Shown piece by piece: positions 412-32,738 of a stretch of DNA of 42,666 bases. The notes below the pieces were generated by a model. It saw only the letters and a program-made list of their open reading frames with translations. It had not been told where the DNA came from and did no database searches. Within the stretch, counting starts at the first letter, position 1; every line of letters begins with the position of its first letter. This DNA comes from Acetofilamentum sp. (GTDB lineage: Bacteria > Bacteroidota > Bacteroidia > Bacteroidales > DYOH01). The stretch is from assembly GCA_020720625.1 (NCBI GenBank), contig DYOH01000026.1, positions 1-42,666 of the forward strand, in the 5' to 3' direction. The translations under genes were made by a program, and so were the position numbers.

Positions 412-957
412 ATGGCAGCAAACGAAAAAGTAAAATTACTCGATAAGGAATTTGAAATTTTTATCACTTCCGAAAAAATTGATTGTGCAGTTGCAGAAGT
501 TGCTCAAAAAATGAACGAAAATCTAAAGAACGAAGATGTTATTTTTATAGGAGTTTTAAATGGTTCGTTTTTATTTGCTGCCGATTTATACCGTAAATTG
601 GAGTTTGATTCGCAAATTTCGTTTGTAAAAGTAGCCAGTTATATGGGTACATCAAGTACAGGCAACGTAAAAAGATTGATTGGCTTAAACGAAGATGTAA
701 GAAACAAAACAGTAATCATATTAGAAGATATTATAGATTCAGGAAAAACAATAGAGGATTTGGTTAAGCAAATCAAAGGATACGAACCCAAGAGTATCCA
801 AATAGCCAGTTTTCTATTTAAACCAGATGCTTATTTAGGAACACTTCCTATTGATTATGTTGGAATAGAGATTCCGAACGATTTTATAGTAGGTTATGGA
901 TTGGATTATAATGGATTAGGACGAAATTTACCCCATATTTATAAAATTGTAGAATAG
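412..957 (+). CDS. hpt: Hypoxanthine phosphoribosyltransferase
   Basis: Cytoplasmic purine-salvage enzyme that joins hypoxanthine or guanine to PRPP to give IMP or GMP. The 181 residues match the usual family length. The PRPP-binding loop LEDIIDSGKT is at residues 104-113, and the GVLNGSFLFAADL segment near residue 47 is typical of the hypoxanthine branch. The C-terminal part has the family's IPNDFIVGYGLDY block. It is the first gene of a tight plus-strand run; adk follows after 18 bases, so purine salvage and adenylate balancing are probably co-transcribed. The ATG start lies a short distance behind a TAnnTTTG box. Whether it prefers hypoxanthine or guanine cannot be told from sequence alone. 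Confidence 0.95.
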   Translation: MAANEKVKLLDKEFEIFITSEKIDCAVAEVAQKMNENLKNEDVIFIGVLNGSFLFAADLYRKLEFDSQISFVKVASYMGTSSTGNVKRLIGLNEDVRNKTVIILEDIIDSGKTIEDLVKQIKGYEPKSIQIASFLFKPDAYLGTLPIDYVGIEIPNDFIVGYGLDYNGLGRNLPHIYKIVE

Positions 958-24017: not shown

Positions 24018-25850
24018 TTAAAGCACCTCTTCATCTACTTTCAGGTTATCGATTATAAAGTCTTGCCTTGTGGGTGTATTTTTGCCCATGTAAAAATCAA
24101 GAAGTTGGTCGATATTATCTTCTTTTTTTAGACTAACGCTATCCAATCGAATGTCTTTTCCGATAAAATGTTTGAATTCGTCGGGCGAAATTTCTCCCAA
24201 ACCTTTAAAACGGGTAATTTCAGGATTTGGTCCAAGCTCTTCTATGGCAGCGTTTTGCTCTTCGTCGCTGTAGCAGTATATAGTTTTCTTTTTGTTTCTT
24301 ACCCTAAAAAGAGGGGTTTGCAAAATATATAAATGACCATATTTTACTAAATCTGGAAAAAACTTGAGAAAGAATGTGGTAAGCAATAACCTGATGTGCA
24401 TTCCGTCAACATCGGCATCGGTGGCTACAATAACTTTGTTGTATCGTAGGTTCTCCATTCCTTCTTCAATATTTAATGCAGCCTGCAAGAGATTAAACTC
24501 CTCGTTTTCATAGACTATTTTTTTTGTTAAGCCATACGTATTAAGAGGTTTACCCCTAAGGCTGAAAACCGCTTGGGTATTTACATTTCTCGATTTGGTA
24601 ATGCTACCGCTGGCAGAATCACCTTCTGTGATAAAAATCATGGTTCCGTCGGCTTCTTCGGCATCTGTGTTGTAGTGAAATCGGCAATCGCGTAGTTTTT
24701 TGTTGTGCAAACTAACTTTTTTGGCTCTTTCGCGGGCAATTTTCTGTATCCCGCTAATGGCTTTTCGCTCTTTTTCTGCATCCTGAATTTTTCGGAGTAA
24801 AATTTGAGCAGTTTCGGGGTTTTTGTGCAAATAATCGTTGAGGTGTTTCCCTAAAAAATCCACAATAAAGTTTCGAATGCTCACACCGTCGGGCGTCATG
24901 TTTTTTGAGCCTAATTTTGTTTTAGTTTGCGATTCGAAAACCGGTTCTTCTACCTTTATGCTAATGGCAGTCATGATAGAAGCTCTAATATCGGAAACAT
25001 CAAGGTCTTTTTTGTAGAAATCGCGTATGGTTTTCACAACGGCTTCTTTAAAGGCAAGTAAATGGGTTCCACCTTGCGAAGTGTGCTGTCCGTTTACAAA
25101 GGTATAATACTCTTCACCGTAGTGACTGCTGTGAGTAATGGCTACTTCAATGTCAGTACCTTTGAGATGAATAATAGGGTAGAGGCCTTCGGAGCTCATG
25201 TTTTCGTTGAGCAAATCGAGCAAACCGTTGCGCGAGTAATATGCTTTATCGTTAAAGTTGATGGTAAGTCCCGAGTTTAGATACACATAATTGCGCAGCA
25301 TGGTTTCGAGATATTCCATTTTGTAAATATATTCCTGAAAGAGTGTATTATCTGGTACAAAAACAATTTCTGTTCCGTTTGGCTTATTTGATTTGGTTTC
25401 GGGTAAATCGCGAACCAAATTGCCTTGCGAATATTCTATCTCTTTAACCATTCCTTCGCGATACGAACGAATAATAAAGCTCGACGAAAGGGCATTTACC
25501 GCTTTTATACCCACACCATTTAATCCAACCGATTTTTTAAAAACTTTTGAATCGTATTTGGCACCGGTATTCATTTTCGACGATACGTCCATAACTTTAC
25601 CCAGTGGAATTCCACGCCCAAAATCTCTTATTCTAACCTGACCATCGGCAACGGAGACTTCTATTTTATTACCGTAGCCCATCATGTATTCGTCTATAGA
25701 GTTGTCGAAAACTTCTTTAAAAAGGATATATATTCCGTCGTCGGGCGAAGAGCCATCACCAAGTTTTCCGATATACATTCCCGGCCTGTGGCGGATATGT
25801 TCTTTCCAATCCAGTGTTTTTATGGTATCTTCCGAATATTTTGCTGTCAT
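24018..25850 (-). CDS. parE: DNA topoisomerase IV subunit B
   Basis: ATPase subunit of a type IIA topoisomerase, decatenating chromosomes with ParC. The GHKL ATPase domain shows [15 protein letters not shown] (catalytic region), RDFGRGIP and [14 protein letters not shown]. The transducer and TOPRIM domains follow, with ITEGDSASG and the metal-binding [13 protein letters not shown]. At 610 residues it is the compact form and lacks the insertions of GyrB. The N-terminal sequence and length fit the Bacteroidota ParE type rather than GyrB, though the distinction is not absolute. No subunit A gene follows; a beta-lactamase-fold gene is downstream instead. Confidence 0.88.
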
Positions 25851-25876: not shown

Positions 25877-26092
25877 AAAAAAATGATATGTACAACATGG
25901 GGTATTTTAGAAAAGTTATAAACATTTGCTAATAAAATTATTAACAATCGAACAAAAGTGCCCTGTTCATTGAGCTTGTGCAATGGCTCAAAAAGGTGAA
26001 AAATCAAAAGGATAAAGTGAAAATAATCGGTGATTAGTTTGTTTAAAGTAATAATTTTTGATTTTGTATATTCACATGCTTTTTGCATGCAA

Positions 26093-26126
26093 TAAAAAAA
26101 GACTGTGTTTATTATCGCACAGCCTA
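26093..26126 (-). terminator. Terminator of the sensor/66-residue protein operon
   Basis: On the minus strand the stem AGGCTGTG / CACAGTCT (8 bp with one G-U pair, loop of 10) is followed by seven T. It begins 25 bases after the stop of the 66-residue protein and separates that operon from parE. Confidence 0.8.
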
Positions 26127-26150
26127 TTTTTTGCACTTTGGAGTCAGAAA

Positions 26151-26351
26151 TTAATTGTACTTATAGGTATTAAATTTATTTCTGATGGTTTCCATTAATT
26201 GTTCTTTTAATGCTTTTTCGTGGATTTCCTGAAATTTATCCGTAAGAATATTGATGAATTCAACTTTAGTGAATGGAATTTCTTCCGAATCCCAGTTAAG
26301 TTCAAAAACATCGTCCACAAATTGTTTTATTTCGTCTCTAAAATTAATCAT
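26151..26351 (-). CDS. Small acidic protein downstream of the GAF/PAS sensor
   Basis: A 66-residue protein beginning MINFRDEIKQFVDDVFELNW. It is acidic and predicted mostly helical, with no signal peptide, membrane segment or metal motif. I do not recognise a family. It starts 6 bases after the stop of the GAF/PAS sensor gene and is followed by its own terminator, so the two are very probably one transcription unit. The short hydrophobic heptads (for example FINILTDKFQEIHEKALKEQ) would suit a protein-protein interaction partner. A role as partner or output for the sensor is inferred from position only. Confidence 0.7.
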   Translation of the reverse strand: MINFRDEIKQFVDDVFELNWDSEEIPFTKVEFINILTDKFQEIHEKALKEQLMETIRNKFNTYKYN

Positions 26352-26357
26352 ATATGG

Positions 26358-28634
26358 TTAAAATAGTTCAACTTCAATTGTTTGAATAAATACCGTAAGG
26401 GTATATTTTCGTCTGTATTTTCCTTCGGAAAGCGTAATTAATACATTTATTTTTTTTCCGGCAGAATCGTAAATATTTACTTCTTGTCTTTTGCCCAAGA
26501 AATTAGTATCAGCATAAAAGAAATTTGAAATATGATTCTCGTCTGCCTTATTTTTTGGTATAATTGTAGTCATGGGTTTACCTACAACGTTGGCTGCATT
26601 GGCTTCGAATAATTTTTCGGCGGCTTTGTTAAAGAAGAGAATTGTCTCTTTCATATCGATGGTGATAATTGCATCGAGCATTCCGTCGAGCGCTCTTTCG
26701 TTGAGCACTTTTATATCTTCAATTTCTTCAAATTGATTTTTGATTTCCTGACGAGCCAAATCCAGTGCCGCAGATAATTTTTCTTGAGCAATGCGTAGTT
26801 CTGCTTCCTGTTCTTCTAATCTTGATGCGTTTTCCATGAGTTTGGCTTCGGCTTCAACTTGCTGCGACACGTCGTGGGCAATGAAAACGACTTCCGAAAT
26901 TTCGTTATATAGATTAGTAACCGGCGACAATGTTGTGCGCATGTGCCTAATTTCGCCTGATAATGATTTCATTTTGAAACTGGCTTCGTGGCTTTTACCT
27001 TTAATTACGCTATCCCAAAGTTTTTTAAATTCGGCCACATCGTCTATCTCTATAATATCATAGATGGAATAGGAGACAATTTTATTTTTGGGAATGTCCA
27101 TTGCGTGCAAAAATTTGTTATTGGCCAAAATAAAATTGCCAATTAAATCGAATTCGGCTTTAATGGCGCTATTGTCTATTGCAGTAGAAAGGCCTTGGTG
27201 GTAAAGCGATTCAGTTTTTTGTTGAGTAATGTCAATGGCAAGGAAAAGAATTCGCTCCACACTATCGTCGGATCGTCTAACACATGTATATGTTGCCATT
27301 GTCCAGAGGTCCTTGCCCGATTTTGTCATAAGCTTTATTTCGCCTTCTACGTGCATTCCTCCTTTGGCCAGTACTTCCCAAGTTTCGCTAAAAGATGCAC
27401 GGTCTTTGGGGTTAATAAACTGGTATATTGGTTTTCCTTCTACTTCGGAATTACTAAAATATTCGAGTTTGAAAATGAAATTGGTATTTGCGTAGAGCAG
27501 ATTTCCTTCCGGATTATACTCAGCTCTTATGAGTGTATGATTAACTGAATTTGTAAAACTGATAAATTCTTCGGCCTGGGCTGCTTTTTCTTTCTGAATT
27601 TGATTCAGTCTTTCCATGTTTTTTCGTAAAACATCTTCTTGTTTGGCCAGTACTTCGGCTTGTTGGCGCGATTCTTCGAGCAACTTAGCTTTAATGGCTT
27701 CTGTTTTGGTGTTTGCAAGGGTTATGGCAATACTTTCTCCGAGTTTAATTAAAAAGTCGCGTTTATATTCGGGAATATCGTTTAGCGAAGAAAACTCCAT
27801 AATACCGTGAATTTCGTTGTCGCGCACCAGAGGCACAATAAACACAACTTTGGGATTTGTTTTGCCGAGTCCCGAAGTTATATTCATATATCCCTCTGTA
27901 ACCTCTGGCAGGTATAGTGGCTTAAATTCTATAGCACATGCCCCAATTAAGCCTTCGCCCCATTCGATAATTTGGTCGCAGAATTTTTTTCTATCATAGG
28001 CATAAGAGCCTGTTTGTTCGAAATATTTTCGTTGATTTTCTATTCTTAGAACAAAAAATCCGCCTTGCTCCACACCTATATAGTTTACTAGTTCCGAGAT
28101 AAGTAAATAGGATAATTTAGATAAATCGGTGGTAGAGCGCAGGTGTTCGCCAAATAAGGCCAAGCCTTCTGTTGTCCATCGTCTTTCTTCGTCTTCGATA
28201 TTTCGTTTGGCTTCTTCTTCTTGTGAGCGTTTTATTTCGTCGCGCAGTTTAATTAGAGAATCGGAGATTTCTTTCTCAGCAATTTTTTTCGAAAATTTTG
28301 CTTCAACATTTCCTTTTCTCAGATTTTCTATAAAATTAAATATTTCGTTGCGGCTTTTTTTGGTATCAACAAGTAATTCTTGGTGCTCGGCAACGGTTTT
28401 GTTGAAGAATCTGTAAACAAAGAATGAGAGCAATGGAAAGATAATTATGAGTGAATCCGTAACCCATAAGAATGGGAAATAGGCATGCAAGTGTAATATG
28501 CCTATAAAATTTAGCGAAATATTTTCTATGGAAATGGCAGTCGTTAGTAAGCCTAAGATGCTTATTAACAAGCCTATTGCAAATCCAATTAGGATTATGG
28601 TATATTTATTTTGTCGTCTAAGGTTAATGAACAT
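26358..28634 (-). CDS. Membrane sensor with GAF and PAS domains, no output domain
   Basis: A 758-residue protein with two N-terminal membrane helices (about 12-34 and 52-76). A charged coiled coil follows, then a GAF domain (about 160-305, containing GVEQGGFFVL and WGEGLIGACA). Another coiled coil leads to two PAS domains (about 365-480 and 490-605, each ending in the PAC-like ILFLAIDITQQ or VVFIAHDVSQQ). A long coiled coil (about 605-660) and a final PAS domain (about 665-755, with DAIITIDMKETILFFNKAAE) complete it. The protein stops there: there is no histidine kinase, GGDEF, EAL, SpoIIE or adenylate cyclase domain. The 66-residue gene follows after 6 bases. Ligand and output are unknown. 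Confidence 0.85.
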   Translation of the reverse strand: MFINLRRQNKYTIILIGFAIGLLISILGLLTTAISIENISLNFIGILHLHAYFPFLWVTDSLIIIFPLLSFFVYRFFNKTVAEHQELLVDTKKSRNEIFNFIENLRKGNVEAKFSKKIAEKEISDSLIKLRDEIKRSQEEEAKRNIEDEERRWTTEGLALFGEHLRSTTDLSKLSYLLISELVNYIGVEQGGFFVLRIENQRKYFEQTGSYAYDRKKFCDQIIEWGEGLIGACAIEFKPLYLPEVTEGYMNITSGLGKTNPKVVFIVPLVRDNEIHGIMEFSSLNDIPEYKRDFLIKLGESIAITLANTKTEAIKAKLLEESRQQAEVLAKQEDVLRKNMERLNQIQKEKAAQAEEFISFTNSVNHTLIRAEYNPEGNLLYANTNFIFKLEYFSNSEVEGKPIYQFINPKDRASFSETWEVLAKGGMHVEGEIKLMTKSGKDLWTMATYTCVRRSDDSVERILFLAIDITQQKTESLYHQGLSTAIDNSAIKAEFDLIGNFILANNKFLHAMDIPKNKIVSYSIYDIIEIDDVAEFKKLWDSVIKGKSHEASFKMKSLSGEIRHMRTTLSPVTNLYNEISEVVFIAHDVSQQVEAEAKLMENASRLEEQEAELRIAQEKLSAALDLARQEIKNQFEEIEDIKVLNERALDGMLDAIITIDMKETILFFNKAAEKLFEANAANVVGKPMTTIIPKNKADENHISNFFYADTNFLGKRQEVNIYDSAGKKINVLITLSEGKYRRKYTLTVFIQTIEVELF

Positions 28635-30977: not shown

Positions 30978-32738
30978 TTAATTGCCGTAAAATATATGTA
31001 AAGCTCCTGATATTCTGTGCTTTTTATCGTCTTTTCCTTCGGCAATTACAGTATAATAATATAATCCTGGTTTTACAATTTTGTTACCCCGGTTTCCTAT
31101 GGAGCCGTCCCAGCCTTGGTCTATCTCGGAGAGGTTTGATAATTCTGCTACTTTTTCGCCCCAACGGCTATAGATAAAAACTTTTGCTTCTCTGAGACCT
31201 TCGTGTGTGATTAAAAAGCGGTCGTTGTTTCCATCGTTATTGGGGGTAAATACGTTTGGTGCTTCTACTTTTGAAATTGGGGCAGTAACAATAATTACGA
31301 GTGTGTCGTAATTTACGCAAGCTTGTGTCGAAGTGGCTTTTAGTATAACTTCGAATTCTCCTTTATCTATATACGTATGCGATGGGGCGGCTTGATTGAT
31401 GGCCGATTCTCCATCGCCAAAATCCCAGTCGTAGGTGGCATTCTCCCAATTGGTATTGTTGGAAAAACTTACATCCAGTTCTGCATCTCCGGTTTCCGGA
31501 TTGGCAGAAAAATCTGCTTTTTGCACTTCCACGTATACTGTGGTATCTGCTATACATCCGTAATCGTCGGTAGTTATAAATTTAAAGTTTAGAAAAGTGT
31601 TGGTTTTTAGCGCTTCGGCTGTTACTGATGCCATTAAAGAATCGCCAAGGAAGTGCCCAAAGGCAGATGATTGCCATTGAATTTTACTATTTGAGTTTTT
31701 GAATTGTTTTATTGGTGGGATGGTATCAAAAATAAGTTTCCAGGATTTTATGTATCCGTTGTTTTCTAAATTATTATCTATTACGGCTAGTTGCCAGATA
31801 CCATTTAAATTGCATCCAATTAGCTGTTTAAAACTTGTTTCCGGCAAATAACTGCCCGATGGGTAGTAAGGCTCGTTGATGTATGAAGAATCGGCATTGT
31901 CTGTATAGGAATAAAAATATTGCTGTTCTTCTTGGCTCATGGTGCCAAAGTTTGGTATTTTTTCGGTAAAATAATACCAGTAGGTTTCTCCTTTTTTTGT
32001 AGTTAAATCTTCATTATCAACTGGTTCTCCCATGAAAACCTTTTTTGTGCCGGTTTTTTTCAAGCTAATGGAGTTTCCATCCGGGCACATGATTTGAATT
32101 TCAATATCCTGAGCATTAGAATGTTCCATTAGTATTGCAATAGTATCTATAGTTTGCGCCGAAATTATTTTGTGGTTAATTTCAAAGGCATCAAAGTATA
32201 TAGATGAAGTATAGGCTTTGCCAAGGTTGATTTCTTTTTCCACAGATTCTGTTCTTTCTGAAACAAGAGCTTGCTTCCAAAGCGGATATTCGTATTGGGC
32301 ATCAAGTTGAATAATATCATTGTTTTGGCCATCGAAGCAAATACTGTATGAATCTGTAATGGAACTAGTTCCTGAAAAATTTGGCCGGAAAGCTATTCTG
32401 ATAAATTTTTTTGCATATAATGTGTCGTTTTGAGGGCTGATGGCTTTTAGATACACAAAATAGCCGCCGCTAACTGCATATTGGTTTGAAACCGAATCGA
32501 GGTTTAAGCCCGATTCTTTTATCCCATTTCCGTAATTCCATTCGAAAAACGTATTTTCGTCGAGTTCTGTTGAGTCGGAATTTCTGGCTAAGAAAATGAT
32601 ACTGGAATCTATGCAAAAATTAAGTGTATCGGCATCATTGGCCTTGGGAACAGATAATATTTTCAGGGATTGACTAAGCAAAGTGATTGGAGAAATCAGA
32701 AATAGTATAAATAAGATTTTTTTTATCGTCATATTCAC
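30978..32738 (-). CDS. T9SS type-B-sorted surface protein with PKD and P-like domains
   Basis: A 586-residue exported protein. A signal peptide ends near LLSQS. A first PKD-like domain (about 40-110) is followed by a region resembling the jelly-roll P domain of proprotein convertases (about 170-345, ending GIWQLAVIDN and SWKLIFD). A second PKD domain has the classic WDFGDG core near residue 440. The C-terminal 85 or so residues (APNVFTPNNDGNNDRF to SGALHIFYG) are the gliding-motility-associated type-B sorting domain, which directs secretion by the type IX system. No enzymatic domain is visible, so an adhesin-like or structural surface role is likely. Confidence 0.88.
   Translation of the reverse strand: MNMTIKKILFILFLISPITLLSQSLKILSVPKANDADTLNFCIDSSIIFLARNSDSTELDENTFFEWNYGNGIKESGLNLDSVSNQYAVSGGYFVYLKAISPQNDTLYAKKFIRIAFRPNFSGTSSITDSYSICFDGQNNDIIQLDAQYEYPLWKQALVSERTESVEKEINLGKAYTSSIYFDAFEINHKIISAQTIDTIAILMEHSNAQDIEIQIMCPDGNSISLKKTGTKKVFMGEPVDNEDLTTKKGETYWYYFTEKIPNFGTMSQEEQQYFYSYTDNADSSYINEPYYPSGSYLPETSFKQLIGCNLNGIWQLAVIDNNLENNGYIKSWKLIFDTIPPIKQFKNSNSKIQWQSSAFGHFLGDSLMASVTAEALKTNTFLNFKFITTDDYGCIADTTVYVEVQKADFSANPETGDAELDVSFSNNTNWENATYDWDFGDGESAINQAAPSHTYIDKGEFEVILKATSTQACVNYDTLVIIVTAPISKVEAPNVFTPNNDGNNDRFLITHEGLREAKVFIYSRWGEKVAELSNLSEIDQGWDGSIGNRGNKIVKPGLYYYTVIAEGKDDKKHRISGALHIFYGN

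Follow-up and report, generated by a model that had tools for sequence, protein, structure and literature searches.

A membrane GAF/PAS sensor with a pentapeptide-like C-terminal tail, a putative accessory of the Bacteroidales chemosensory pathway

The window analysed here, 42,666 nucleotides of contig DYOH01000026.1 from Acetofilamentum sp. (Bacteroidales; assembly GCA_020720625.1), carries on its reverse strand a gene for a large membrane sensor, a small gene and a terminator. The features of this pair are as follows:

26358-28634 (-): ORF of the output-less membrane sensor, 758 aa (ORF and domain searches)
28407-28610 (-): two transmembrane segments, about residues 9-41 and 51-76 (hydropathy peaks; helices in the model)
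27717-28130 (-): GAF domain (GAF_2), residues 169-306 (PF13185, E 2.8e-9; mixed strands and helices in the model)
27222-27518 (-): PAS domain 1, residues 373-471 (PF13426; model)
26838-27188 (-): PAS domain 2, residues 483-599 (best stretch of TIGR00229 at 483-599; model)
26379-26699 (-): PAS domain 3, residues 646-752 (best stretch of PF00989 at 646-695; model strands to residue 752)
26361-26378 (-): C-terminal tail IEVELF-COOH, a putative docking tail, residues 753-758 (conservation; disorder in the model)
26151-26351 (-): 66-aa acidic helical protein, a lineage-specific accessory (ORF, pI 4.7; kept behind the sensor in 3/3 family genomes)
26094-26124 (-): intrinsic terminator, hairpin and U7, closing the pair (RNA fold of 26085-26150)

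The PAS and GAF domains of the sensor scored above the Pfam cut-offs; PF13426 alone reached E 9.2e-26 for the whole protein, over three stretches. No match to HisKA, HATPase, GGDEF, EAL, SpoIIE or the MCP signalling domain (PF00015) was obtained in the Pfam and NCBIfam searches. In the AlphaFold model (mean pLDDT 83.7, alignment of 80 sequences) long helices connect the domains, and a fold search with the sensor returned generic PAS structures only (DosP, PpsR, FixL), uninformative on output. The sequence-only reading of this gene (two membrane helices, a single GAF domain, three PAS domains, output domain missing) was thus borne out by the ORF, the domain searches, hydropathy and the model.

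Output-less PAS/GAF sensors are common in Bacteroidota and usually give no clue to their signalling. The window genome itself holds many paralogues with the same GAF-PAS core (20 matches). The sensor also has the input architecture, transmembrane anchor and signalling coiled coils of GAF/PAS sensor histidine kinases, from which it differs by the missing HisKA/HATPase part. We considered that it might be a kinase stripped of its catalytic part and rejected this: among 60 relatives, 25 matched at E 1e-20, and the 19 near-full-length proteins obtained, that of the window included, are 743-763 aa long and kinase-less. Since these relatives are equally long, the missing output domain is no recent loss, and a kinase lost only in this genome, which would have told against the initial reading, was not seen. 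Full-length kinase-less orthologues occur across Bacteroidales. In a plasmid search, 329 records matched, none of them covering 80%.

The small ORF starts 6 bases past the sensor stop codon. It encodes, as first read, a small acidic protein with a predicted structure of two helices (pLDDT 85, from an alignment of only 3 rows). Searches of PDB folds gave no significant match, and Pfam, NCBIfam and PHROGs gave nothing above cut-off or convincing. Its 71% identity in the nearest genome, with dN at 0.16 and dS, close to saturation, at 2.9, indicates that it is a real gene under purifying selection. The window's family is represented by three genomes, the window's own (G000), G001 and G002; the small gene lies directly behind the sensor in all three, with identities of 71 and 35%. 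The pair sits in a che operon, at its end, in G002 and elsewhere in G000 and G001, so that the two genes stay linked in differing surroundings.

Homologues of the small protein were sought in 60 relatives, the 3 family genomes, 393 genomes of the order, 395 of the phylum, the family of G085 (1 genome) and the 80 named sensor loci described below. Matches came from 8/393 order genomes, of which G000, G001, G002 and G085 are credible, and from 2/395 phylum genomes, G000 itself and G600. The weak matches in G004, G230, G287 and G331 (order) and in G600 (phylum) lie in longer frames or have stops inside, and were set aside as chance. In G085 the homologue does not adjoin the sensor orthologue; it overlaps a SpoIIAA-like gene (L144:262-480 and 465-860 (-); PF11964 at E 5e-4, under the cut-off), which gives this protein family another genomic setting. 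Of the 80 named loci only L165 and L166 carry the small gene, and these are family members G001 and G002 again. Its absence from 78/80 loci (77/79 when only those with a sensor ORF are counted) marks it as a lineage-specific accessory, not a general partner. The pair had been proposed as a unit in which the small protein carries the sensor's signal. As a gene pair it is kept within the family, with selection on the small gene and adjacency in 3/3 genomes, and it was not seen in the named loci beyond; co-conservation of the two genes, the check suggested at the time, ends at the family border, and a general signalling route through the small protein is not supported. A self-contained two-gene system is therefore highly improbable in our view, even though the pair is kept in 3/3 family genomes with the small gene under purifying selection. 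We regard the 66-aa protein as a family-specific addition that may modulate the sensor.

The terminator closing the pair (GGCUGUG...CACAGUC, then U7) folds at -16.5 kcal/mol with a z of -2.7. It had been called clear, which is slightly generous, because its loop of about 10 exceeds the limit of 8 in a simple terminator scan, which listed no site on this strand; the hairpin and the U7 themselves stand. Downstream of the pair lies a gyrase B / topoisomerase-type ATPase gene (24018-25850 (-)), a homologue of which is also found on the sensor contig of G001.

To place the sensor among its relatives, GTDB contigs were scanned with tail-bearing queries and the best 80 of 563 relatives were kept as a named set. 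It consists mostly of Bacteroidales/Bacteroidota MAGs, along with two records whose titles name Chlorobi or Chlorobiota and one isolate, Perlabentimonas gracilis M08_MB; L213 has no sensor ORF and was left out of the counts, leaving 79 named loci. Clustering of the neighbours showed that many sensor orthologues follow a chemosensory operon. With gene classes assigned as BLAST labels against G002 proteins (score and length cut-offs), at least two che-operon genes lie within 10 kb of the sensor in 54/79 loci, and the gene immediately upstream is CheB in 30/79 and a lone receiver in 20/79. The typical order is STAS-CheY-CheA-CheW-(MCP)-CheR-pseudo-kinase-CheD-CheB with the sensor orthologue at the end; in G002 as in most relatives, the sensor comes after CheB. 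Pfam searches of the G026 operon and of one G002 MCP recovered response regulator, CheA (Hpt, dimerisation, HATPase, CheW), CheW, CheR, CheD, CheB and MCP, together with a HATPase protein in G026 showing a weak HisKA match. An operon of this kind lies on contig C81 of the window genome (STAS, CheY, CheA, CheW, MCP, a second CheW, CheR, pseudo-kinase, CheD, CheB), and the genome gives 19 MCP matches in all. Its sensor gene lies on C11, away from that operon, and at the window locus it is neither in nor near a che operon. By its che-operon location and co-occurrence across genomes, the sensor family is, on these comparative grounds, probably a component of the chemosensory pathway. A shorter sensor of 625 aa, still ending VELF, occupies the che operon of G031 (L139:5284-7161 (-)).

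The orthologues share a C-terminal end. In 75/79 named loci the sensor ends [DE]-x-F-COOH, mostly as VELF or VDLF, with VDFF and IDLF among the other tails; the conserved form is [VI][ED][LF]F-COOH. The mean modal frequency of the tail is 0.85, against 0.59 for PAS3 (80 sequences). The frequency of tailed sensors in the named set is biased upwards, because this set, the best 80 of 563, was chosen by similarity to tail-bearing queries. The VE[LF]F-stop DNA pattern matches 15 times in the 3.8-Mb window genome (reversed control 11), and only two ORFs longer than 70 aa end in it: the sensor and the pseudo-kinase of the che operon on C81. On ten stretches of the same genome, 15 GAF/PAS paralogue ORFs were inspected and all lack the [DE]xF end; two of them do end in F, but position -3 is acidic in neither. 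The sensor is thus set apart from these paralogues by its tail and, in relatives, by its che-operon home.

In the model the tail comes straight after the final PAS strand, with no long linker, as would be expected if it merely completed the PAS fold and the che neighbourhood were incidental. We hold this to be quite improbable: the last four residues (755-758) are disordered in the model (pLDDT < 50), none of the 15 paralogue ORFs ends likewise, the tail is mostly missing where Che is absent (see below), and unrelated folds of the same operon carry it.

This last point was quantified in a tally restricted to the named loci, with identical sequences merged (an earlier, larger set held several genomes twice) and with the same class labels, the length cut-off for gene1, the coiled-coil first gene of many che operons, being looser than in that earlier set. 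The [DE]xF-COOH end was found in 46/48 pseudo-kinases, 16/17 gene1 proteins and 8/12 operon MCPs, as compared with 0/34 CheA, 0/52 CheB, 0/46 CheR, 0/46 CheD and 0/42 CheW (together 0/220), 0/21 longer kinases and 6/486 unrelated genes. Gene1 tails read LELF, VELF or IELF; those of the pseudo-kinases are mostly EEIF, EETF or DEVF, that of the window genome being VELF. Operon MCPs end in YEKF, FEKF, YDTF and similar, a canonical-looking [YF]E[KR]F pattern, and the operon MCP of the window genome ends EFEKF. Among complete MCPs of a mixed set, 13/35 end in F, and many MCPs outside the operons are tail-less. The C-terminal tail and the Che link are what nearly all orthologues share, instead of the small gene.

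The two other tailed families deserve a description of their own. The pseudo-kinase is a kinase-like ATPase of about 300 aa with no input domain (L137:2283-3158 (-) and orthologues). Its H-box His is replaced by Asn in 48/48 named loci (60/60 in a larger set that contains them, with some genomes twice) and its ATP-binding domain is kept; for these two reasons it too looks like an accessory. Gene1 encodes a coiled-coil protein of 560-600 aa with a VELF-like end (L070:404-2134 (+), L069:2-1684 (+)) and an invariant D-I-x-R-Q segment (DIIRQ), and matches no Pfam family. DIIRQ resembles the DxxxQ site of CheZ, a phosphatase that acts on CheY, and gene1 may be a CheZ-like phosphatase; the C-terminal end of CheZ binds CheY. 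With only chance coiled-coil or helical-bundle matches in a PDB profile search and no CheZ in Pfam, gene1 was nevertheless left unassigned.

These families bear on an alternative in which the sensor is a Che accessory whose tail binds CheY, CheD, CheW or the array, or in which sensor and pseudo-kinase form a split receptor. The tails closest to that of the sensor are indeed those of gene1 (VELF/LELF) and of the window-genome pseudo-kinase, not those of MCPs. A pseudo-kinase devoid of both input domain and phospho-accepting His fits a split receptor, and the CheZ-like segment of gene1 could hint at CheY. Gene1, however, matches no CheZ model or structure and was not seen in the che operons of G000 and G001 (contigs examined). 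We rate this alternative as rather unlikely.

We then compared the presence of the tail with that of Che. Of 85 rows, 81 were scored (L205, L206, L221 and L224 were left unscored): 70 have tail and Che, 2 tail without Che, 2 Che without tail and 7 neither (Fisher 3.6e-7, uncorrected for kinship). Tailed sensors therefore occur with Che in 70/72 scored rows, and the tail-less form in 2/9. On a FastTree tree of the 85 rows, built without the tail, about 4 tail changes are seen; of 4 independent pairs, about 3.6 on average show Che and the tail changing together and almost none show them changing in opposite directions, for a sign-test p of 0.125, four pairs being too few to reach significance in this test. 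The CheW domain was searched in 27 genomes, 9 with tail-less orthologues and 18 chosen for an orthologue away from che genes (17 tail-bearing ones and G085, whose sensor piece also ends VELF). It is missing in 7/9 of the former, being present in G009 and G046, and present in 16/18 of the latter, with none found in L187 and L239. Similarly, 14/14 genomes with the tail bear MCPs, compared with 2/5 without. Genomes without Che thus mostly appear to lack the tail.

One of the tail-less and CheW-less loci, L240, keeps a hybrid-kinase-like gene beside the sensor, and in 12/79 named loci such a gene, by its BLAST label, lies immediately downstream on the same strand. The sensor might then feed a separate soluble hybrid histidine kinase, its che-operon position being partly historical. 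Yet 67/79 loci have no hybrid kinase downstream, the window has none beside the sensor, and a hybrid kinase would account neither for the tail nor for its occurrence in three che-operon families. We consider this reading improbable.

The reading that we favour on balance, with little better than even confidence, is that the sensor is a non-MCP accessory of the Bacteroidales chemosensory (Che) pathway, docking by its pentapeptide-like tail, most likely on CheR/CheB. The Che association, the shared C-terminal motif and their co-loss are read directly from the sequences; from these we infer the docking and the tail's binding partner. The sensor would have no kinase or MCP signalling domain because the Che proteins carry its output. 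Its tail would be a free docking peptide that tethers PAS domain 3 to a Che partner which the tailed proteins share; the pentapeptide-binding site of CheR, of CheB or of both is the likeliest candidate, and a signal sensed by the GAF/PAS domains could thereby change the location or activity of the adaptation enzymes.

In the Salmonella pentapeptide NWETF, according to PMC8609364, W2 sits in a pocket, E3 forms a salt bridge to an arginine, and a hydrophobic pocket of CheR takes up F5; the corresponding picture for CheB comes from modelling. The sensor tail, x-[VI]-[ED]-[LF]-F, keeps the E3 and F5 type positions of the peptide as given there and has an aliphatic position 2. Using the peptide-contact residues listed in PMC2577667, we examined the operon CheR proteins. 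Their beta-subdomain is of the pentapeptide type, without indel relative to Salmonella CheR in 56/57, and K/R occupies positions 187 and 197 in 57/57; of the six contact positions so listed, Q182, G188, G190 and G194 are mostly changed. An ungapped subdomain with K/R at 187 and 197 but changes at 188, 190 and 194 makes a pathway-specific variant of the CheR peptide site plausible. The canonical pentapeptide, defined as xZxxZ (Z = F, W or Y) in PMC7390727, is fitted by 0/79 sensors, position 2 being V, I or L. CheR may for this reason not bind the tail, and the partner may be another protein. Other points that weigh against the favoured reading are the changed CheR contact positions, the short connection between PAS domain and tail, the mismatches of tail and CheW in G009, G046, L187 and L239, the sign test on so few pairs, the choice of the named set, the position of the window's sensor gene away from its che operon and the downstream hybrid kinases of 12/79 loci.

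Compared with MCPs that bear pentapeptide tethers (NWETF of Tar/Tsr; EFEKF, the pentapeptide of class 34H in PMC2577667), the sensor is likewise membrane-anchored, has coiled coils and a che-operon gene, and closes with an acidic peptide that carries E or D at position -3 and F at position -1. Unlike them, it has no MCP signalling domain, no aromatic position 2 and no long flexible linker before the tail. The pentapeptide survey of PMC7390727 was limited to chemoreceptors and would have missed tails of this type in other proteins. No description of this arrangement was found in the open-licence PMC literature, and the novelty would lie in a non-MCP protein that serves Che as an accessory and carries a pentapeptide-like tail. 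A tail common to the pseudo-kinase, the coiled-coil protein and the MCPs of one operon points to a docking code that may bring non-MCP proteins into the chemosensory pathway. We propose more tentatively, as a possibility less likely than not, that the sensor and the His-to-Asn pseudo-kinase plug into Che only via the shared [DE]xF tail and act on CheR/CheB rather than CheA, which would amount to a new chemosensory input.

Elsewhere in the window, positions 30978-32738 (-) encode a large protein with PKD and P-domains and a CHU_C type IX secretion signal, suggesting a T9SS organism.
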